From: Streptomyces pristinaespiralis
Lineage (GTDB): Bacteria; Actinomycetota; Actinomycetes; Streptomycetales; Streptomycetaceae
Assembly (NCBI RefSeq): GCF_001278075.1
Contig: NZ_CP011340.1
Location: 7,685,501-7,749,500 of the forward strand
Reading direction: 5' to 3'
Length of the DNA stretch: 64,000 nt
Numbering within the stretch: the stretch's first letter is position 1; the number at the start of each line of letters is the position of its first letter. Shown in pieces: positions 49,516 through 57,688 of this stretch. The position numbers and the translations under genes are program-made. The notes beneath the pieces were generated by a model. It did no database searches. It worked only from the letters and a program-made list of their open reading frames with translations, and had not been told where the DNA came from.

Positions 49516-49539
49516 CGCTCACCTGTCGCCAGGTGAGCG
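49516..49539. promoter_or_regulatory. TCACC..GGTGA palindrome, site A
   Basis: CGCTCACCTG and CAGGTGAGCG are perfect 10-bp arms around TCGC, giving TCACC-N8-GGTGA. It overlaps the stop codon of the DUF7144 gene (49519) and lies 38 bp upstream of the lipid-kinase start. It may be an operator shared with sites B-D, or simply a hairpin. Confidence 0.55.
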
Positions 49540-49965
49540 ACGGTGGGTGTCGAAGGACTCGTCGCGCCGGACCACGCACAGTGCCCAGATGATGAAGGCC
49601 GACATCGCGATCATCACGACGGACCAGATCGGGTAGTACGGCAGGGACAGGAAGTTCGCGATGATGACGAGTGCGGCGATGGCGACGCCGGCGATGCGTG
49701 CCCACGTCGCGGCGCGGACCAGCCCGAGGCTGATGAGCACGGCGAGCGCGCCCAGGGCGACGTGGATCCAGCCCCAGCCGGTCAGGTCGAACTCGAAGAC
49801 GTAGTCGGGTGTGGTGACGAAGATGTCGTCCTCGGCGATCGCCATGATGCCCCGACAGATGTCGAGCACACCGACGATCATGAGCAGGACGCCCCCGACC
49901 ACTGTCAGACCGCTCGCGACTTCCTGCTTCGTGCTGTCTGCCTGTCGTGTGTGTGTCGCGGTCAT
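49519..49965 (-). CDS. DUF7144-like four-helix membrane protein
   Basis: This 148-aa membrane protein has four helices: LTVVGGVLLMIVGVLDICRG, then GWGWIHVALGALAVLISLGL, IAGVAIAALVIIANFLSLP and a final one. The conserved FDLTGWGWIH loop matches the actinobacterial family DUF7144. The function is unknown; members are usually linked to stress genes. ATG 49965 has GAGGAG 7 nt upstream. It lies 30 bp after the PLDc_N-SHOCT gene and is likely in the same operon. Confidence 0.85.
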   Translation of the reverse strand: MTATHTRQADSTKQEVASGLTVVGGVLLMIVGVLDICRGIMAIAEDDIFVTTPDYVFEFDLTGWGWIHVALGALAVLISLGLVRAATWARIAGVAIAALVIIANFLSLPYYPIWSVVMIAMSAFIIWALCVVRRDESFDTHRRSPGDR

Positions 49966-49995
49966 GCCGGTGCTCCTCGTGTCGTCCGCACGCGT

Positions 49996-50469
49996 TCAGC
50001 GTCCGGAGGTGGTGGCCCGCGTGGCGCTGTCCGGGCCTCCGGCCGGCCCATGGCCGGTCAGGATCAGGTCCTTGGCCCTGCTGAACTCCTCGTCCGTGAT
50101 GTCGCCGCGGGCGCGGATCTCGGACAGCCTGGAGAGTTCGTCGACGCTGCTGGGACGGCCCTTGCCGCCCGCAGCCTCCCTGACGTAGGTGTCGAACGCT
50201 TCCCGTTGGGCTCGGGCGTGCTCCGTCTCCCGGCGGCCCATGTTCCTGCCGCGCGCGATCACGTAGACGAAGACGCCCAGGAAGGGCAGGAGGACGGTGA
50301 ACACCAGCCAGCCGGCCTTCGCCCACCCGCTCAGCGCGTCGTCACGGAAGATGTCGGTGACGATGCGGAAGAGCAGGACGAACCACATGATCCACAGGAA
50401 GAAGACGAGCATGCTCCAGAAGACGCTCAGCAGGGGATAGTCGTACGCCAGGTAGGTCTGCGCGCTCAT
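49996..50469 (-). CDS. PLDc_N membrane protein with C-terminal SHOCT domain
   Basis: This 157-aa protein has two transmembrane helices (SVFWSMLVFFLWIMWFVLLF and KAGWLVFTVLLPFLGVFVYV) forming the PLDc_N motif. A hydrophilic linker follows, then a SHOCT module, SVDELSRLSEIRARGDITDE followed by EFSRAKDLIL. SHOCT modules are oligomerisation or localisation elements. ATG 50469 is fixed by GGAGGAGAG 5 nt upstream; the long upstream frame has no protein-like content. The gene follows palindrome site B by about 80 bp. Function unknown; envelope stress suspected. Confidence 0.88.
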   Translation of the reverse strand: MSAQTYLAYDYPLLSVFWSMLVFFLWIMWFVLLFRIVTDIFRDDALSGWAKAGWLVFTVLLPFLGVFVYVIARGRNMGRRETEHARAQREAFDTYVREAAGGKGRPSSVDELSRLSEIRARGDITDEEFSRAKDLILTGHGPAGGPDSATRATTSGR

Positions 50470-50547
50470 GTCTCTCCTCCGTCCCGGGCGCTCGCCGGCG
50501 GCCCGTCGCGTGCTGTCTTCAGCGTGGACACGGCCAGGGCCGGGGGC

Positions 50548-50566
50548 CTCACCCGACGCGGGTGAG
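50548..50566. promoter_or_regulatory. TCACC-N7-GGTGA palindrome, site B
   Basis: CTCACCCG-ACG-CGGGTGAG, centred about 88 bp upstream of ATG 50469. It lies between the HdeD gene end and the PLDc_N-SHOCT gene. Confidence 0.6.
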
Positions 50567-50612
50567 CTGCGCGGCCCGGCGTCCTTGTCCTGGTGCGGCG
50601 GCAGTTCGGGTT

Positions 50613-51275
50613 TCAGGCCGCTGCGGCAGGACCGTGCGTGCTTGTCGTGCTCGCCTTTCTGAGCGCGCCCCGCCACGCGAGGGCGACCGCCCCCTCGGCG
50701 AGGCCGAGCAGGACGAGCCACAGGCCGAGCAGCCGGGTCAGGGCGCGGGCCGACTCCATGGGCAGGGCGAGCACCACGATCCCCGCGACGATGCCGAGGA
50801 CCGCGAGGACCAGGACGACGCCGCGGTGGGGGAGGTCCCTGGCGGTGATGGCCGTGTAGAGGGTCAGGACACCGGAAACGAGCCAGACACCGCCGACGAT
50901 CAGCGAGAGAGCGGCGATGGTCTGCAGCGGGTTCCGCAGGCACAGCACCCCGGCCAGGATGTACAGAATCGCTACGAGCAGCCCGACGAGCCGTTCACCG
51001 TGCTCCTCCCGCCCGAAGACGGCCACGAACCGGAACGCCCCGGTGACCAGCAAATACAGGCCGATGAGGACCGCCACGACGTGCAGGGTCCCCTCCGGCC
51101 ACACCAGTACGAGGACACCGGGCACCAGCGTCGCCGCCGCGGAGCCCAGGAGCCAGGTCCACGAACGGCCGAGGCGTGCCAGCACGGTCGCGGGGTCGCC
51201 CGCCGGGCGGGGGATCTCCGTGCCTGCCATGTGTTCCGGTCCGGTGCGCGGTGCCGGATCAGGCGATGCGGTCAT
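50613..51275 (-). CDS. HdeD-family (DUF308) acid-stress membrane protein
   Basis: This 220-aa protein has six transmembrane helices arranged as DUF308 repeats. Examples are SAAATLVPGVLVLVWPEGTL, VVAVLIGLYLLVTGAFRFVA, LYILAGVLCLRNPLQTIAAL and LVLAVLGIVAGIVVLALPME. E. coli HdeD contributes to acid resistance at high cell density; in actinomycetes the role is unproven. ATG 51275 has GAGGAG 6 nt upstream. Palindrome site C lies about 100 bp upstream, between this gene and the divergent K+ channel gene. Confidence 0.9.
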   Translation of the reverse strand: MTASPDPAPRTGPEHMAGTEIPRPAGDPATVLARLGRSWTWLLGSAAATLVPGVLVLVWPEGTLHVVAVLIGLYLLVTGAFRFVAVFGREEHGERLVGLLVAILYILAGVLCLRNPLQTIAALSLIVGGVWLVSGVLTLYTAITARDLPHRGVVLVLAVLGIVAGIVVLALPMESARALTRLLGLWLVLLGLAEGAVALAWRGALRKASTTSTHGPAAAA

Positions 51276-51372
51276 GGCGTACTCCTCGCGCGGTCGAGCG
51301 ATCGCTTCCGACCGCCGGTGGGGCTGCGTGCCCGAACGTCAGCGATTCAGTGTTCCGCGCCCCGTCGGCAGC

Positions 51373-51397
51373 CGGATCACCCATGGCGGGTGATCCG
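51373..51397. promoter_or_regulatory. TCACC-N7-GGTGA palindrome, site C
   Basis: CGGATCACCC-ATGGC-GGGTGATCCG has perfect 10-bp arms. It is in the 236-bp divergent gap between the HdeD gene and the K+ channel gene, about 100-115 bp from both starts, so it could serve both directions. Confidence 0.65.
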
Positions 51398-51511
51398 TCG
51401 GGGGTCACCGGGGCGGTGGGGTGGGAACCGGAGGCGTTCGTCGGCCGTGCGGCGAAGCGGCGTACGCCGACACGGAGCGGACCGCGGCCGGAACGAAACG
51501 AAAGTCACGTG

Positions 51512-52150
51512 ATGAGCGATCCCGAGGCAGCCCGGACGGATCACATCCGACCGGTATCCGTCACGGGCCGGCGCGGTCGGCGGCTCCGCCCCGATCGGCG
51601 GGCCGCGGTCGCGGCCCTCGCCCGTGCGGTGTTCATCGTCGCCGCCCTCCTCACGGCCTACTTCCTGCTGCCTTTGAAGGAGCGCGGCACGGCCGGTGGG
51701 GCGGCGCTGTTCGCATGCGGACTCCTGGCGCTCCTGCTGGTGTTCGCGGGGGAGGTGCGGATGATCGTGCGATCGCCCTACCCGCGCCTGAAGGCCGTCG
51801 AGGCCCTGGCTGCCACGCTGGTGTTGTTCCTGGTCCTCTTCGCCGGTGGCTACTACCTGCTGGACGACTCCAGCCCGGGGTCCTTCAGCGAGCCGCTGAC
51901 CAGGACGGACGCCCTGTACTTCGCGCTGACCACGTTCAGCACCGTCGGCTTCGGGGACATCAACGCACGCTCCCAGGCCGGGCGGGTGATGACGATGCTG
52001 CAGATGGCGGGAGGGCTGCTGCTCGTGGGCGTCGCCGCACGGGTGCTGGCGAGCGCGGTTCAGGCCGGGCTGCTCCGGCAGCGCCGTGAACCGCCGGGGG
52101 AGCCGGATGCCGGAGCAGACACGACGACCGAGCGAGAGGCCGGACCATGA
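51512..52150 (+). CDS. two-helix potassium channel-type protein
   Basis: This 212-aa membrane protein has an N-terminal helical pair (AVFIVAALLTAYFLLPL and FACGLLALLLVFAGEV), then a classic pore unit: outer helix ATLVLFLVLFAGGYYLL, pore loop YFALTTFSTVGFGDI with selectivity filter TVGFGD, and inner helix. There is no RCK/TrkA domain. ATG 51512 is chosen from context; the frame is open upstream and the ribosome-binding site is weak (GAAAG). It overlaps the DUF2252 gene as ATGA. A role in K+ flux during osmotic stress is inferred. Confidence 0.9.
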   Translation: MSDPEAARTDHIRPVSVTGRRGRRLRPDRRAAVAALARAVFIVAALLTAYFLLPLKERGTAGGAALFACGLLALLLVFAGEVRMIVRSPYPRLKAVEALAATLVLFLVLFAGGYYLLDDSSPGSFSEPLTRTDALYFALTTFSTVGFGDINARSQAGRVMTMLQMAGGLLLVGVAARVLASAVQAGLLRQRREPPGEPDAGADTTTEREAGP

Positions 52151-53550
52151 CCGTACCCAGTGGTTTCACCGCGTCCCTGCCCCTGTCCGAGCGGGCGGCC
52201 CACGGCAGGAACGCGCGCAGGCGGGCATCACGTTCATGCCACGGCTGGTACGAGACGGCACGGCAACGACCGGATCCCATCGAGGTGATAGAGCAGCAAT
52301 CAAAGGAGCGCGTACCGGAGTTGGTGCCGATCCGCTACGGCCGCATGCTGGAGTCGCCCTTCCGTTTCTACCGCGGCGCGGCAGCGATCATGGCGGCGGA
52401 CCTGGCACCCCTTCCGAACACAGGGCTGCAGGTGCAGCTCTGCGGGGACGCCCATCCGCTGAACTTCAGACTGCTCGCTTCGCCGGAGCGACGTCTGGTC
52501 TTCGACATCAACGACTTCGACGAGACCCTGCCCGGGCCGTTCGAATGGGACGTCAAGCGCCTGGCGGCCGGCTTCGTGACGGCGGCACGGGCGAACGGCT
52601 TCTCGGTCAAGGAGCAGAACAGAACGGTGCGGGCATGCGTGAGCGCGTACCGGGAGCGGATGAGCGAGTTCGCCGGCAAGCGCACCCTGGACGTCTGGTA
52701 CGCCCAGGACGACGCCGACCATCTGCGGGAACTGATGGCCTCGTCGATGGACAAGGAGGCCGGGCGCCGTACCGACGAGGCCACGGCGCGCGCCCGCACG
52801 CGTACGCATCTGAGGGCGTTCGCGAAGCTCACCCGCGTCACGGCCGAGGGCCGGCGCATCGCACCGGACCCGCCGCTGATCACTCCGCTCGGTCAGCTCG
52901 ACGCGTCCGGGACCGGGCGGGAGGTGGAGCTCCAGAGCCTCGTGGACGGGTACGCACGCACCTTGCCGTACGAACGCCGCCACCTGTTGCGGCACTACCG
53001 TCTGGTGGACATGGCCCGGAAGGTGGTGGGCGTCGGCAGTGTCGGCACGCGCTGCTGGGTGCTGCTTCTGCTCGGCAGGGACGACGACGATCCCCTGCTG
53101 CTGCAGGCCAAGGAGGCCCAGGAGTCGGTCCTGGCCCCCCACGTGGGCGGCGAACGCTACGACAACCAGGGCCGCCGGGTGGTGACCGGCCAGCGCCTGA
53201 TGCAGACGGCCGGCGACATCTTCCTGGGCTGGACCCACGTCGTGGGCCTCGACGGGCAGGGCCGCGACTTCTACGTGCGCCAGCTGTGGGACTGGAAGGG
53301 CATCGCACGGCCGGAGACGATGGGACCGGGTCTGCTCTCCCTCTTCGGCCGCTTGTGCGGGGCGTCCCTGGCGCGGGCCCACGCCCGGTCGGGAGATCCC
53401 GTCGCCATCGCCGCCTATCTGGGCGGCAGCGACCGCTTCGACCGTGCGCTCACCGAGTTCGCCCAGGGCTACGCCGACCAGAACGAGCGGGACTTCGGGG
53501 CGATGGAGGTCGCCTGCCGCTCCGGCAGGATCAGGGCGGAAAGTCTTTAG
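52147..53550 (+). CDS. DUF2252 family protein
   Basis: This 467-aa soluble protein has the DUF2252 signature: FYRGAAAIMAADLA, CGDAHPLNFR, FDINDFDETLPGPFEWDVKR and ARAHARSGD near the C-terminus. The fold is thought to resemble aminoglycoside-phosphotransferase/protein-kinase-like enzymes, with GDAHPLN and the DINDFD acidic residues placed like catalytic elements; the biochemical function is unknown. ATG 52147 has GAGAGAGG 8 nt upstream and overlaps the channel gene, so the two form an operon. Confidence 0.92.
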   Translation: MTVPSGFTASLPLSERAAHGRNARRRASRSCHGWYETARQRPDPIEVIEQQSKERVPELVPIRYGRMLESPFRFYRGAAAIMAADLAPLPNTGLQVQLCGDAHPLNFRLLASPERRLVFDINDFDETLPGPFEWDVKRLAAGFVTAARANGFSVKEQNRTVRACVSAYRERMSEFAGKRTLDVWYAQDDADHLRELMASSMDKEAGRRTDEATARARTRTHLRAFAKLTRVTAEGRRIAPDPPLITPLGQLDASGTGREVELQSLVDGYARTLPYERRHLLRHYRLVDMARKVVGVGSVGTRCWVLLLLGRDDDDPLLLQAKEAQESVLAPHVGGERYDNQGRRVVTGQRLMQTAGDIFLGWTHVVGLDGQGRDFYVRQLWDWKGIARPETMGPGLLSLFGRLCGASLARAHARSGDPVAIAAYLGGSDRFDRALTEFAQGYADQNERDFGAMEVACRSGRIRAESL

Positions 53551-53596
53551 GCGGCGGTGCCTTCCTGGCTTCAGGCGGAAGGCGGCGGTGCCTTCC
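53550..53596. repeat. 16-bp direct repeat (31-bp period) after DUF2252
   Basis: GGCGGCGGTGCCTTCC occurs at 53550-53565 and 53581-53596, starting on the last base of the DUF2252 stop codon. It looks like a recent small tandem duplication in the 3' flank. Confidence 0.75.
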
Positions 53597-53619
53597 GGGC
53601 GCGGCTCCGGTTCGGCCGA

Positions 53620-53817
53620 TCACTCCGGCAGCTGCCGCATTTCCAGGACACGCAGTCCGAGCGACTGGAAGCGGGCCAACAGCCCGTACAGGTGCGCCTC
53701 GTCCACGATGGGGCCGAACAGGAGCGTCTGGCCCGACATCACCACGTGACCCAGCTCCGGGAAGGCCTGGGCCAGTGTTTCCGACATGTGTCCCTCGACG
53801 CGGATCTCGTAGCGCAT
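53620..53817 (-). CDS. small conserved protein with ACT-like pattern (65 aa)
   Basis: ATG 53817 has GGGAG 8 nt upstream and starts MRYEIRVEGHMSETLAQAFP. The pattern 'YEIRVEGH......F......G.T.L.GP..D.A.L.GLL.R...LGL...' recurs in streptomycete small proteins I recall, and suggests a ferredoxin/ACT-like beta-alpha-beta fold. The function is unknown. It is convergent with the DUF2252 gene and has palindrome site D about 90 bp upstream. Confidence 0.75.
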   Translation of the reverse strand: MRYEIRVEGHMSETLAQAFPELGHVVMSGQTLLFGPIVDEAHLYGLLARFQSLGLRVLEMRQLPE

Positions 53818-53898
53818 GGGCTGTTCTCCCGCGGGCGACATGGGCGGACGGACGGTGCGCTTCACTGCGATCGTCCTTGTTCAGGGCCCGGCTGGGCC

Positions 53899-53915
53899 TC
53901 ACCCGGTACAGGTGA
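53899..53915. promoter_or_regulatory. TCACC-N7-GGTGA palindrome, site D
   Basis: TCACC-CGGTACA-GGTGA lies in the gap between the 65-aa gene (start 53817) and the four-helix gene (end 53946). Spacing from the downstream start is about 90 bp, similar to sites B and C. Confidence 0.6.
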
Positions 53916-53945: not shown

Positions 53946-54467
53946 TCAGTGCGTCAGAGCGATCTTGAGGGTGATGATCAGCAGACCGAGCAGCAGATTG
54001 ACCGAGGCGGTGACGGTCATGAGACGCCGCGAGGCACCGGCCCGGCGCGCCGCGGCCACGGACCAGCCCACCTGCCCCGCCACGGCGACGGACACCGCCA
54101 GCCACAGGGCGCCCTGAACGTCCAGTCCCAGGAGCGGGCTGACGGCCACCCCGACCGCGGGCGGCACAGCCGCCTTGACGATCGGCCACTCCTCGCGGCA
54201 CACCCGCAATATGGTCCGGCGGTCGAGGGACCGCTGCATCAGGCGTGCTCCGAACAGTTGCGCGTGCACGTGCGCGGCCCAGAACACCGCGCTGGTGAGC
54301 AGCAACAGCAGTACCAGCTCCGTGCGCGGGAAGGATCCCAGGGTGCCGGCGCCGATCACCACGGAGGCCGCGAGCATCGATCCGTAGACGCCGCCCGTGT
54401 AGTCGGCACGAGCTCGACGCTCGGTTCTGACTTCTCTGCCGGTGGCGGGGTTGTTGATCCGGGACAC
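53946..54467 (-). CDS. four-helix membrane protein of unknown function (173 aa)
   Basis: GTG 54467 is fixed by GAGGAGG 5 nt upstream; the longer frame back to 54701 is non-coding in style. A short basic cytosolic N-terminus (NPATGREVRTERRARADYTG) precedes helices such as MLAASVVIGAGTLGSFP, ELVLLLLLTSAVFWAAHVHA and, at the end, LLLGLLIITLKIALTH. It resembles uncharacterised integral membrane proteins of streptomycetes. The location in the stress island suggests an envelope role, not a specific function. Confidence 0.8.
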   Translation of the reverse strand: MSRINNPATGREVRTERRARADYTGGVYGSMLAASVVIGAGTLGSFPRTELVLLLLLTSAVFWAAHVHAQLFGARLMQRSLDRRTILRVCREEWPIVKAAVPPAVGVAVSPLLGLDVQGALWLAVSVAVAGQVGWSVAAARRAGASRRLMTVTASVNLLLGLLIITLKIALTH

Positions 54468-54850
54468 CGGTGCCTCCTCGGGCTCAGGGTCTCGTCGCCC
54501 GGCCGGCGCTCTGTCTCGTGCCGGTGGGCAGGGCTCCCGCGGCGGGTCGGCGCGGGTGCCCGGCATCCCTGGGGAACCGAGCCGTTCCCCGGGACGGTCG
54601 GAGCACACCGGTGTGCAACGTGTCCACCTCGCCGATTCGGCCCGGAGCGTCACCGGAACCGGCCGGACAGCGGCCCGCTCGTGCGCTGCCGCCGCTCCCA
54701 TCGCACCTCAAGGACCCCTTCCCGCACCTCACCCGCCAGGGGGGAGGGCCGGCCGTCCCGGCTTTCGCCGGCGCGTTCCGTCCCGGTCTCGGCGGCCAGG
54801 GGCTCCCGAAGGGCTCTGGCCGCCGCTCGCACGCCGTCCCCGAAGCGGGT
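54468..54850. other. 383-bp gap between the four-helix gene and the LAL regulator
   Basis: No gene is supported. It contains a degenerate copy of the island palindrome (TCACC-CGCCAGG-GGGGA, 54729-54745, one mismatch) and a terminator-like hairpin at 54790-54825. Confidence 0.5.
54790..54825. terminator. hairpin downstream of the LAL regulator gene
   Basis: CGGCGGCCAG (54790-54799) and CTGGCCGCCG (54816-54825) form a perfect 10-bp stem around 16 nt, starting 26 bp beyond the stop of the minus-strand gene. Confidence 0.6.
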
Positions 54851-57529
54851 TCACACCAGGCCCAGCTCGCGCGCGCGGCGCACCGCTTCGTTGCGCCGAC
54901 TCACGGCCAGCTTGCGGTAGACGCTCTTGAGGTGGGTCTTCACCGTGTTCACCGACACATAAAGGTCGGCGGCGATCTCCTCGGTCGACATCATCCGGGC
55001 CAGCCGCTCCAGCACGTCGCGCTCGCGGCCACTCAGCTTCTCCGCGACGAGGGGAGGGGGCGGCACGTCGATCGCGGTCGGTCCGCCGCGTCGCGAGGGA
55101 CCGGGCGTGAGCCAGTCCGCGGCCAGTTCATGGAGAGGCTCGGTGGACAGGAGGGGCCGGATCCATGGGCGGGCATCGAGGAACGGTCTTCTGAGCCGCT
55201 CGCGCCGGGCGTCGAGGAGGGCCTGCTCGACGAGCCTGCGGGCGGTGGCCGTGTCCCCTGCCCCCTCCGCGGCCTGGGCCCTGGCCAGCGCTGCCCGAAC
55301 GGTCACAGCCGGGCCGGTCCGGGCCCCGGTGCGGATGCTGTCCAGCAGACCGAGGGCAGCCCCTGGCCGGCCCGCGGCGAGCAGCATCCGCGCGGCTTCC
55401 ACGGCGCACGCCGGCTGGTCGCCGGACACGTCCTGAAGCACCTCGGCGGCCCTCTCGGGCCGTCCCTCTGCCAGGTGCGCGGCGGAGGCGACCACTGCCT
55501 CATGGCCGGCCGCCCAGGGGGAGGCCACGGCGGCGGGGACGGCCGGGTCCCTCGCCTCGACGGCGGCACGTGCGTTGCCGCGAACCAGCAGGAGAAGATC
55601 CTTTGCGATGGCCCGCCCCGCCGCCGTCACCGGATCGTGCACCGCGGAGGGCAGCCGGGCCGTCTCGTCGAGGAGGGCCTGGGCCCGGCCCAGCTCGTCA
55701 CGGTCGACAGCCACGGCGGCCAGCACCAGAAGCCCGATGCCGGAGGCGCTCGGCTGGGGCAGACCGGACCGCTCGGCCTCGGCGGCACCCGCGAGAGCCT
55801 TGCGCTCCGCCCTGCCGATCCAGCCGTTCAGATAGTCGATCAGTGCCAGGTACCCCATCGCTTCCTGACGTGGCAGCGCGGTCGACGATCCGCCGTGACT
55901 GCCGGTCACGGTGGTCAGCGCGGCACGTGCGTCCTCGAAGCGGCCGGCCCACAGGAGCGTGGAGCCCAGATGCGTCATCAGGAGAGCGTTGAATTCGGGA
56001 TGCTTGTCCAGGAGGTGCCCGGGGACCTCCTGCTGGAGCCGATCGGCGGCCGCCGCGGCGTTCTCGGCCCGTTCGGGAGAACCGGTCAGCCGCGCCGCCA
56101 GGGCCTCCAGCAGCGCACAGCTCAGCTGCGCGGCCGCCGTGTCGGGTGCGTCGCAGGAGAGCCGCTCCTTGGCGTGGTGCAGGTGGAACAGTCCGCGCTC
56201 GGTGTCGTACCGGGACAGGTCGCGGGCCGCCCGGACGAGCTCGGGCGCGGGGCCGGTGGCAGCGGGTTCCATCCCGGAGAACAGCTGGTCGAGGCCGTCC
56301 GAGCGCAGGCCGGTGAAGAGTTGTCCGATCGCCAGGTCGTCGACGAGGGCGCCGGCCGTGAAGCCCCAGTTCCCCGAGGCTGCGCCGTGGGCAAGCGTCT
56401 CCGTGAGGGATCCGGAACGGCGCAGCCACTGCGCGGCCCGTCGGTGGAGTTCGGGCTCGATGCCGGGGAGGCAGACCTGCAGATGGGCCCGGAGTATCTC
56501 CCCGAACAGCGGGTGGAGCCGGTACCACGAGTGCCCGAGGTGCTCGACGAACGCGTTCTCGCGATGCAGCTTGACCAGAATGGTCTCGGCGTCGGTCCGT
56601 CGGGTCAGTGCGTTGGCCAGGCCGGGACAGAATCGCTCCAGGACGCTCACGCGCAGCAGGAGGTCCTGCGTCTCCTGTGTCTGCCGCCTGTGCACCTCGG
56701 CCAGGAGGAAGTCCGCGACGGTACTGTGTCCCGCCTCGAACTCCTTCAGATAGACCTCCGGATCGGCGCTGTCGCGCGCCGCGAGGGCGGACAGGCGCAG
56801 ACCGGCGGCCCAGCCCCCCGTGCGGTCCACCAAGGCGCGCCCGGCGTGGAGGGGCAGGCTCAGACCGTGCAGGTCCAGCAGGGCGACGGCCTCCTCGGGG
56901 GTGAAGGCCAGCTCCGCCGCACGGATCTCCGTCAGCTGACCGGCCGCCCGATAACGGTGCAGCGGAAGCAGTGGCTCGGTGCGGGTGACGATGACCAGGC
57001 GCATGCCCTGACCGGAGTGGTGCAGGACGTACTCCAGTTGCTGAGCGATCTCGGGGTCGGTCACGCGGTCGTACTCATCGAGCACCACGACCACCGGCCG
57101 GTCACGCTCGCTCAGACCGGCGGCGAGCGTGGTCAGCAGCTTGCGGGGCACTTGGGCGGCCTCCGCCGGGATCCCTACCGCGCCGGAGAGCGGCGCACCG
57201 CACGCACGCAGAGCCTGGAGGAGGTACGCCCAGAACATCCCGGGGCCACGGTCCCCCGCTTCAGCGGTCAGCCAGGCGACGGGCTGCCGCAGGCCGGCGG
57301 CCCAGTCGGCGGTCAGCAAGGTCTTGCCCGCGCCGGCGGCTCCGTTGACGAGGGTCAAGGGCGTCCGGAGGGCCTGGTCGAGGTGCCGGACGAGGCGTTG
57401 CCGTCGCAGGTAGGTGGCGGGCCTCGTCGGCAGCGCGATCCGTGTGCGCAGAAACGGGTCCCCCAGAGGATCGGTCCCCGGAGCGATCGGACCGGCCGGT
57501 CCCAGAGCGTTCTCGTCGGTTTCTGCCAC
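54851..57529 (-). CDS. LAL/MalT-type LuxR-family ATP-binding regulator
   Basis: This 892-aa STAND-type transcription regulator has Walker A GAAGAGKT (residues 63-70), Walker B-like VVVLDEYDRV and AAA-lid features such as VTRTEPLLPLHRY. A long helical/TPR-like middle follows (about 350-800). The C-terminal LuxR helix-turn-helix has LSGRERDVLERLARMMSTEE and SVNTVKTHLKSVYRKL. GTG 57529 has GAGGAG just upstream. GTG 57544 lies before that Shine-Dalgarno and is rejected. These proteins respond to a small ligand plus ATP. It is the only large regulator inside the stress island and a candidate reader of the TCACC-N7-GGTGA sites, though nothing proves it. Confidence 0.92.
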   Translation of the reverse strand: MAETDENALGPAGPIAPGTDPLGDPFLRTRIALPTRPATYLRRQRLVRHLDQALRTPLTLVNGAAGAGKTLLTADWAAGLRQPVAWLTAEAGDRGPGMFWAYLLQALRACGAPLSGAVGIPAEAAQVPRKLLTTLAAGLSERDRPVVVVLDEYDRVTDPEIAQQLEYVLHHSGQGMRLVIVTRTEPLLPLHRYRAAGQLTEIRAAELAFTPEEAVALLDLHGLSLPLHAGRALVDRTGGWAAGLRLSALAARDSADPEVYLKEFEAGHSTVADFLLAEVHRRQTQETQDLLLRVSVLERFCPGLANALTRRTDAETILVKLHRENAFVEHLGHSWYRLHPLFGEILRAHLQVCLPGIEPELHRRAAQWLRRSGSLTETLAHGAASGNWGFTAGALVDDLAIGQLFTGLRSDGLDQLFSGMEPAATGPAPELVRAARDLSRYDTERGLFHLHHAKERLSCDAPDTAAAQLSCALLEALAARLTGSPERAENAAAAADRLQQEVPGHLLDKHPEFNALLMTHLGSTLLWAGRFEDARAALTTVTGSHGGSSTALPRQEAMGYLALIDYLNGWIGRAERKALAGAAEAERSGLPQPSASGIGLLVLAAVAVDRDELGRAQALLDETARLPSAVHDPVTAAGRAIAKDLLLLVRGNARAAVEARDPAVPAAVASPWAAGHEAVVASAAHLAEGRPERAAEVLQDVSGDQPACAVEAARMLLAAGRPGAALGLLDSIRTGARTGPAVTVRAALARAQAAEGAGDTATARRLVEQALLDARRERLRRPFLDARPWIRPLLSTEPLHELAADWLTPGPSRRGGPTAIDVPPPPLVAEKLSGRERDVLERLARMMSTEEIAADLYVSVNTVKTHLKSVYRKLAVSRRNEAVRRARELGLV

Positions 57530-57688
57530 GGCGCTCCTCACCACTGTCCGTCAGGGTCGTGTCATGGGGTGCGCTCCCTCACTCAGCTTCCCAGCCTTCC
57601 GGCGCCCGCGCGCGGCTTGCCGGGGCCGGGGGCTTGTTCACAGGGATGCGGGATGCGGGAGCGGCCACTGCCCTCAGCTCGGGCCGGG

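Follow-up and report, generated by a model that had tools for sequence, protein, structure and literature searches.

The described operator that most resembles the one reported here is the Group I box of BldM in Streptomyces venezuelae, an inverted repeat of the half-site TCACC(C)G / CGGGTGA that is thought to take a dimer and through which BldM acts as an activator (PMC4125116). In a count of 23 LuxR-family genes of Streptomyces coelicolor, 14 encode regulators of the LAL family (PMC3282765), and a usable consensus operator is lacking even for a member of the family that has been footprinted (PMC9628970). MalT of Escherichia coli binds boxes of the form GGA[TG]GA (quoted in PMC9628970), doing so cooperatively and after inducer-driven multimerization (PMC4381067), and the Streptomyces regulator OsdR recognizes the DevR element (PMC5069765). 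Our subject is a 64,000-nucleotide window of the Streptomyces pristinaespiralis genome (contig NZ_CP011340.1, positions 7,685,501 to 7,749,500), in which a 17-bp palindrome, TCACC-N7-GGTGA, recurs in front of small membrane-type and stress-type genes beside a gene for a LAL regulator. That the palindrome is a real and strictly conserved operator–promoter element of a dedicated regulon is, in our view, very nearly certain, and the LAL protein encoded at 54851-57544 is probably the activator that binds it through its LuxR-type helix-turn-helix (HTH) domain.

Three exact copies occur in the window, all read on the minus strand, and no others were found in its 64 kb. Site B (50549-50565), with the sequence TCACCCG-N3-CGGGTGA, forms part of the promoter that precedes the SHOCT (PLDc_N) and DUF7144 genes; site C (51377-51393) lies between the divergent HdeD and K+ channel/DUF2252 genes and most likely drives HdeD; and site D (53899-53915), which reads TCACCTGTACCGGGTGA on the gene strand, belongs to the promoter of a gene for a 65-residue protein. 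The original prediction had placed B and D correctly and C one base off, at 51376-51392. It had also put the sites about 80–115 bp from their start codons: B is 80 bp from SHOCT, D is 82 bp from the 65-residue gene, and C is roughly 102 bp from HdeD, with 119 bp separating it from the start used for the K+ channel, all of them approximate distances since the start codons are predictions. When one mismatch is allowed, the window holds 4 matches against 3.07 ± 1.66 in shuffled sequence, a difference that is not significant, so the case depends on the exact copies.

In the source genome as a whole (8,532,592 bases) the exact palindrome occurs 17 times and a reversed control 3 times, and three of the 17 copies, namely B, C, and D, fall within 3.4 kb. 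The corresponding rate is about 0.13 per 64 kb (17 in 8.53 Mb); the earlier estimate, from base composition, had been fewer than one copy in the window. Among the remaining copies, three are in tRNA-Gly genes (L004, L005, and L013), six are within predicted genes (L001, L003, L007, L009, L010, and L012), one has the look of a hairpin terminator as judged by eye (L002), and three have no clear placement (L008, L011, and L014). The last, L006 (5028666-5028682 of the genome), stands 80 bp upstream of a second SHOCT–DUF7144 operon, 2.7 Mb from the island, with the −10-like hexamer CACTCT 23 bp after it; upstream of this operon, a protein is encoded whose start resembles, by eye, a TetR regulator. 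The refined pattern TCACCY-N5-GGGTGA is found at 5 distinct places, 4 of them before island-type genes. A search of the genome at up to two mismatches gave 114 forward matches against 72 for the control and was too noisy to be used.

An HdeD search of genome contigs provided 80 further loci, all from Streptomyces and flanked by as much as 10 kb on either side, 1,566,340 bases in total. Gene calls in them came from a simple GC-frame script, and gene starts are hence approximate. The palindrome occurs 210 times in these loci and its reversed N7 control once, while other spacers from 0 to 15 reach at most 22 copies (N0 22, N5 18, N8 17, and N6 8). Three copies are present in 46 of the 80 loci, and in a separate draw of 30 loci from the genus, our own included, 29 carry exact copies. 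With the window added, giving 213 sites in 81 loci, 71 sites lie upstream of the SHOCT family, mostly 78–82 bp from the predicted start, 67 upstream of HdeD, and 63 upstream of the 65-residue family, mostly at 80–84 bp; on the other side of the HdeD site, a DUF2252 gene (27) or a K+ channel gene (18) shares the palindrome. Over the 210 sites, position 6 is always C or T, as far as the rounded frequencies tell, and position 7 mostly G, the outer five bases being fixed by the search itself.

Conservation, the N7-only spacing, and placement together support the proposal that a dedicated operator or promoter element unites the island as one regulon. Two observations had been named in advance as ones that would count against it, and neither was made. 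As to its frequency inside genes genome-wide, six of the 17 genomic copies are in genes, but four of the five places of the refined form precede island-type genes. As to orthologous intergenic regions, it is conserved in them, with at least one exact copy in 73 of the 80 loci and only 8 of the 213 sites inside predicted genes. The phrase "stress island" itself is a reading of gene names.

Some N7 copies lie outside this pattern. Two, L170 (4337-4353, from a genome without LAL) and L177 (4052-4068), stand between convergent hup-like and murA-like genes and are probable terminators that add to the background counts. Among single out-of-island sites in genomes with LAL, L168, upstream of a copy of DAGK, and L176, upstream of a copy of SHOCT, fit the regulon, and L166, L167, and L169 show no clear fit; L171 to L173, from genomes without LAL, lie within unrelated genes or next to them and were left out of the regulon. 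An N7 palindrome also forms part of a near-identical stretch of 45 bases (GAGGTTGTG...GCCGAGCAT) that is shared by G118, G007, and, twice, G128, genomes with and without LAL, and that appears to be a repeated sequence, coding or mobile. The everted form GGTGA-N9-TCACC, present 54 times in the 80 loci, was taken as a coding effect because 45 of these copies are inside genes of the MFS and 451-residue families.

A second conserved feature accompanies the palindrome. In the SHOCT, 65-residue, and HdeD promoters, which precede unrelated genes, a hexamer of the form nAnnnT starts 22 or 23 bp after the palindrome (68% and 32% of sites, respectively, for SHOCT, 70% and 31% for the 65-residue gene, and 68% and 32% for HdeD), against a median of 0 over offsets 0–59. 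This spacing holds for 206 of the 210 sites in the 80 loci, the discovery set; for 28 of 32 sites in LAL-centered loci of a family-level draw; for 43 of 48 in diverged LAL loci; and for 13 of 17 in islands whose LAL is about 33% identical, the last two sets sharing L158 and L159 and some genomes recurring between sets. Among background N7 sites with no LAL nearby, it holds for 3 of 29. In the window, the hexamers are CACGCT (50521-50526), 22 bp after site B; AACACT (51349-51354), 22 bp after site C; and GACGAT (53870-53875), 23 bp after site D, all on the minus strand. For B, C, D, and L006 the hexamer always points towards SHOCT, HdeD, or the 65-residue gene. On the K+ channel/DUF2252 side the strict hexamer is not conserved, and several genomes have a TGAGGT-like hexamer there. 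Site C is thus best read as the HdeD promoter, the strict hexamer being confined to that side, and the control of the K+ channel gene that had also been predicted is uncertain. From this geometry we infer a composite, activator-type promoter, which would consist of TCACCYG-N3-CRGGTGA, an interval of 22 or 23 bp, and a −10-like hexamer that is mostly [CG]ACG[CA]T.

Which protein might read this element? LAL is encoded in 56 of the 81 loci and is the sole family with a known DNA-binding domain among the 14 families common to at least 10 loci. In the 30 genus-level HdeD loci, all 29 genomes with the palindrome have LAL, and the genome of the one motif-less locus (G065) does not. That locus, L243, is a solitary HdeD outside an island, where similarity ends just before the gene and the match contains one TAG. 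Among named genomes, LAL was found in all 8 chosen from the 73 with the motif and was missing from 6 of the 7 motif-less ones; in the seventh (G153), LAL is encoded at another place and has two palindromes next to it. When 150 genomes of the genus were scored by their count of the refined motif on the larger strand, with a LAL threshold of about 50% identity, the mean was 4.65 in the 48 genomes with LAL, 2.78 in the 9 with a weaker or partial match, and 1.90 in the 93 without, compared with 0.25 for the control (Mann–Whitney p = 6e-14, without phylogenetic correction). The composite pattern was found in 16 of 16 chosen LAL genomes, with 83 strand matches that count some sites on both strands and include at least one tRNA word (own genome), and in 8 of 14 chosen LAL-less genomes, where the tRNA-Gly word accounts for 4 of the 11 matches.

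The association extends beyond the genus. In 30 LAL-centered loci drawn at the family level (167 kb, flanks of about 1.5 kb), the N7 spacing occurs 32 times and none of the other spacers between 0 and 12 more than twice, and 20 of the loci, from five genus codes, have at least one N7 site. It also persists where genes are separated: in G140, LAL and the 65-residue gene lie 5.1 Mb from SHOCT–DUF7144, with sites and hexamers at both places, and in G033 a copy of DAGK away from the island is preceded by a site. Most of the association could reflect linkage within the island, but these sites and that of L006, at unlinked targets, speak against linkage as the sole explanation. The LAL HTH is about 77–82% identical in the distant group, in which the whole protein is about 29–36% identical, and the recognition region (STEEIAADLYVSVNTVKTHLKSVYRKL in the window) varies little among the aligned LAL proteins. 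A second type of island (L178 to L181, L158, and L159) combines a LAL about 29–36% identical with the same target families and the same palindrome, and encodes in addition a separate LuxR-HTH protein of 86–177 residues, 43–57% identical to the HTH of LAL.

The motif, its spacing, the promoter geometry, the conservation, and the co-occurrence with LAL are observations made on sequence. Direct binding by LAL, activation, an inducer, and the transcription starts are what we infer from them, and would fit together as follows. The palindrome may stand in for the −35 box: with the hexamer taken as −12 to −7, it would cover about −52 to −35, centered near −43, where a dimer on the palindrome could touch RNA polymerase, as in class II activation. 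By analogy with MalT, an inducer would switch the ATPase domain of LAL from ADP to ATP, after which LAL would oligomerize and the half-sites would be bound by pairs of its C-terminal HTH domains. LAL would in this way turn on, as a single regulon, SHOCT–DUF7144, HdeD, the 65-residue gene, and the gene behind LAL for a membrane protein or transporter. We have moderate confidence that this describes a genus-crossing regulon, in which a dedicated LAL/STAND ATPase would act on a strict 17-bp operator that replaces the −35 box at a fixed spacing of 22–23 bp, and whose consensus would predict targets genome-wide.

A number of findings weigh against assigning the palindrome to LAL in this manner. The MalT-like mechanism is an analogy only, and HTH helices like those of LAL are common in LuxR-type proteins. 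LAL's own promoter has an exact site within 400 bp in only 2 of 53 cases, and one site before LAL (L160) has no hexamer. The HdeD loci that lack the motif, seven in number, belong to a single clade and therefore count as one evolutionary event. LAL and its targets are mostly linked, so part of the co-occurrence reflects linkage. Ten of the 30 LAL-centered loci have no N7 site within their flanks of about 1.5 kb, and L193 (G039), where LAL is 45% identical, has none in 16 kb. Conversely, genomes without LAL are not free of the refined pattern, 12 of the 93 having at least 4 matches. Four of these twelve (G081, G048, G059, and G123) have islands of the same families with a LAL about 29–36% identical; in the other LAL-less genomes among the eleven examined (all but G096), no LAL was found beside the fetched sites. 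The eleven comprise G081 and G032, from which stretches were fetched, and nine genomes whose sites were listed; in the six of these nine other than G048, G059, and G123 the sites are mostly scattered, and the stretches fetched from four of the six (L182 to L186) contain no LAL. Finally, four of the 14 shared families (the 65-residue, membrane, 451-residue, and 259-residue proteins) have no Pfam match, which leaves room for a hidden DNA binder among them.

This last point bears on the alternative that another regulator, unlinked or unrecognized, binds the palindrome, with LAL a mere neighbor under the same or other control. The scarcity of sites before LAL, the families that lack a Pfam match, and the separate small LuxR-HTH protein of the distant-LAL islands would all suit such a regulator. 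We nevertheless consider it unlikely: no further family common to at least 10 loci has a known DNA-binding domain, the 65-residue protein has no HTH in a confidently predicted model, and the LAL association spans several genera and survives the separation of the target genes. A slightly smaller chance goes to a BldM homodimer that binds the sites as Group I boxes and tolerates one more spacer base. BldM can be expected in every Streptomyces, whereas the N7 sites track LAL. The Group I consensus, TCACcCgnncGgGTGA, has an identical half-site, and BldM is mainly an activator; however, the published box is 16 bp long (N6), with two bases between its heptamers (PMC4125116), and the same 80 loci contain the 210 N7 copies against 8 with N6. 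The source genome matches TCACCCG-N2-CGGGTGA exactly at 1 site and with a single mismatch at 15 more, 16 in all and none of them in the island.

It is highly improbable that the palindromes are transcribed RNA hairpins, whether terminators or attenuators, or that they arose by chance. Hairpin-like N7 copies do exist elsewhere, as between the convergent genes of L170 and L177, and the inverted repeat called site A (below) could, as read from its sequence, fold into a stem with a GCGA loop. Against this, the spacer has a constant length of 7, the conservation is incompatible with chance, and the palindromes are probably upstream of the transcript, given that they precede a −10-like hexamer by 22–23 bp.

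Two imperfect copies named in the original prediction are both present in the window, and they fared differently. Site E (54729-54745, minus strand; TCCCCCCTGGCGGGTGA), with one mismatch, is located behind the LAL gene and before a membrane-protein gene, and proves to belong to a conserved weaker class of the motif set. One-mismatch sites lie within 400 bp upstream of 42 of 56 MFS-transporter genes, often just behind LAL, and nearly all have TC[CG]CC in place of TCACC with GGGTGA intact; 10 of 65 membrane-protein genes, the one in the window included, have such a site, most of them of the TC[CG]CC form. When offsets of 5–35 bp after 50 sites of this class were compared, TGCNAT stood only at 22 bp (30 sites) and 23 bp (4 sites); for site E, TGCGAT is 23 bp further on. 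The probable target of site E is an open reading frame of 251 residues (53946-54701, minus strand) that gave no match in a Pfam search. In the stretch 54699-54705, its listed start (54701) lies inside the hexamer proposed for site E, and the true start is therefore probably further downstream. In contrast to site E, site A (49516-49539), a TCACC-N8-GGTGA repeat with perfect 10-bp arms over the DUF7144 stop codon, was dropped as a copy of the motif: it is outside the conserved element, and the repeat is found at none of 27 DUF7144–DAGK junctions among the 80 other loci. With GCGA as its loop on the gene strand, it is perhaps an intercistronic RNA hairpin.

The genes of the island were assigned largely through Pfam. 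On the minus strand, the site B operon encodes a small PLDc_N–SHOCT membrane protein (49996-50469) and, behind it, a DUF7144 protein (49519-49965), and the target of site C is an HdeD/DUF308 protein (50613-51275), with a DUF308 Pfam match and an HdeD NCBIfam score below the cut-off. On the plus strand, divergent from HdeD, are the Ion_trans_2 ion-channel protein (51512-52150), whose control by site C is uncertain, and a DUF2252 protein (52147-53550). The site D target (53620-53817, minus strand), the 65-residue protein, has no match in Pfam or NCBIfam. It is predicted to fold as beta-alpha-beta-beta-alpha-beta (mean pLDDT 91.8), a ferredoxin-like order of strands and helices, and is an unlikely DNA binder, as this model lacks an HTH; its gene is present in 21 of the 30 LAL-centered loci, and that it tunes LAL is a guess.

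LAL, the proposed binder (minus strand), is identified as a MalT-type STAND regulator by Pfam, NCBIfam, and a match to MalT in the PDB. With 897 residues it combines the large size, N-terminal ATP-binding domain, and C-terminal LuxR HTH of this group: Pfam places AAA_16 at 48-186 (just under the cut-off), AAA_22 at 63-186, TPR_19, and the GerE HTH at 836-891, and residues 34-392 match MalT chain 8bob. Its score for the NCBIfam MalT equivalog is 272.7 bits, below the cut-off of 537.

What would follow if LAL does act through the palindrome? A little-studied regulator family would gain a testable target site, and the strict operator and fixed geometry would make LAL targets predictable in a genome and allow a reporter assay for LAL's inducer. 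The SHOCT, DUF7144, HdeD, and 65-residue proteins would be grouped into one response, in which a bacterial STAND regulator controls an island encoding small membrane proteins without known function, and a change of one base in the spacer could separate two circuits, those of BldM and LAL, with a common half-site.

How does this system relate to those already described? A literature search that covered few subscription papers turned up no account of the regulon or of its 17-bp site. The earlier remark that the motif was not recognized as a named site needs correcting for the half-site, which the BldM Group I box shares. The DosR box in its usual form appears to differ from the island motif. The likeness to the OsdR/DosR (DevR) regulon lies in the kind of target, stress genes that in Streptomyces are under a DevR-type regulator (PMC5069765). 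SCO6993 of S. coelicolor is, like LAL, a palindrome-binding member of the LAL family; it has 606 residues, its authors were unable to predict a consensus, and the footprinted sequences are unlike the island motif (PMC9628970). BldM, an orphan response regulator, acts on sporulation genes, among them whiB and ssgR, in contrast to the small membrane-type and stress-type targets of the island, and the base frequencies over the 210 sites agree with its half-site TCACcCg / cGgGTGA (consensus in PMC4125116). Its box has 16 bp with N6 and the island sites 17 bp with N7, and because the BldM spacer is one base shorter, we do not count the island site as a Group I member. MalT shares with LAL the ATPase part and the GerE HTH, and the island half-site GGGTGA is one base off the MalT box 5'-GGA[TG]GA-3'. 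Whereas MalT occupies several boxes per promoter cooperatively (PMC4381067, PMC10427625), each promoter of the island presents one strict inverted repeat.

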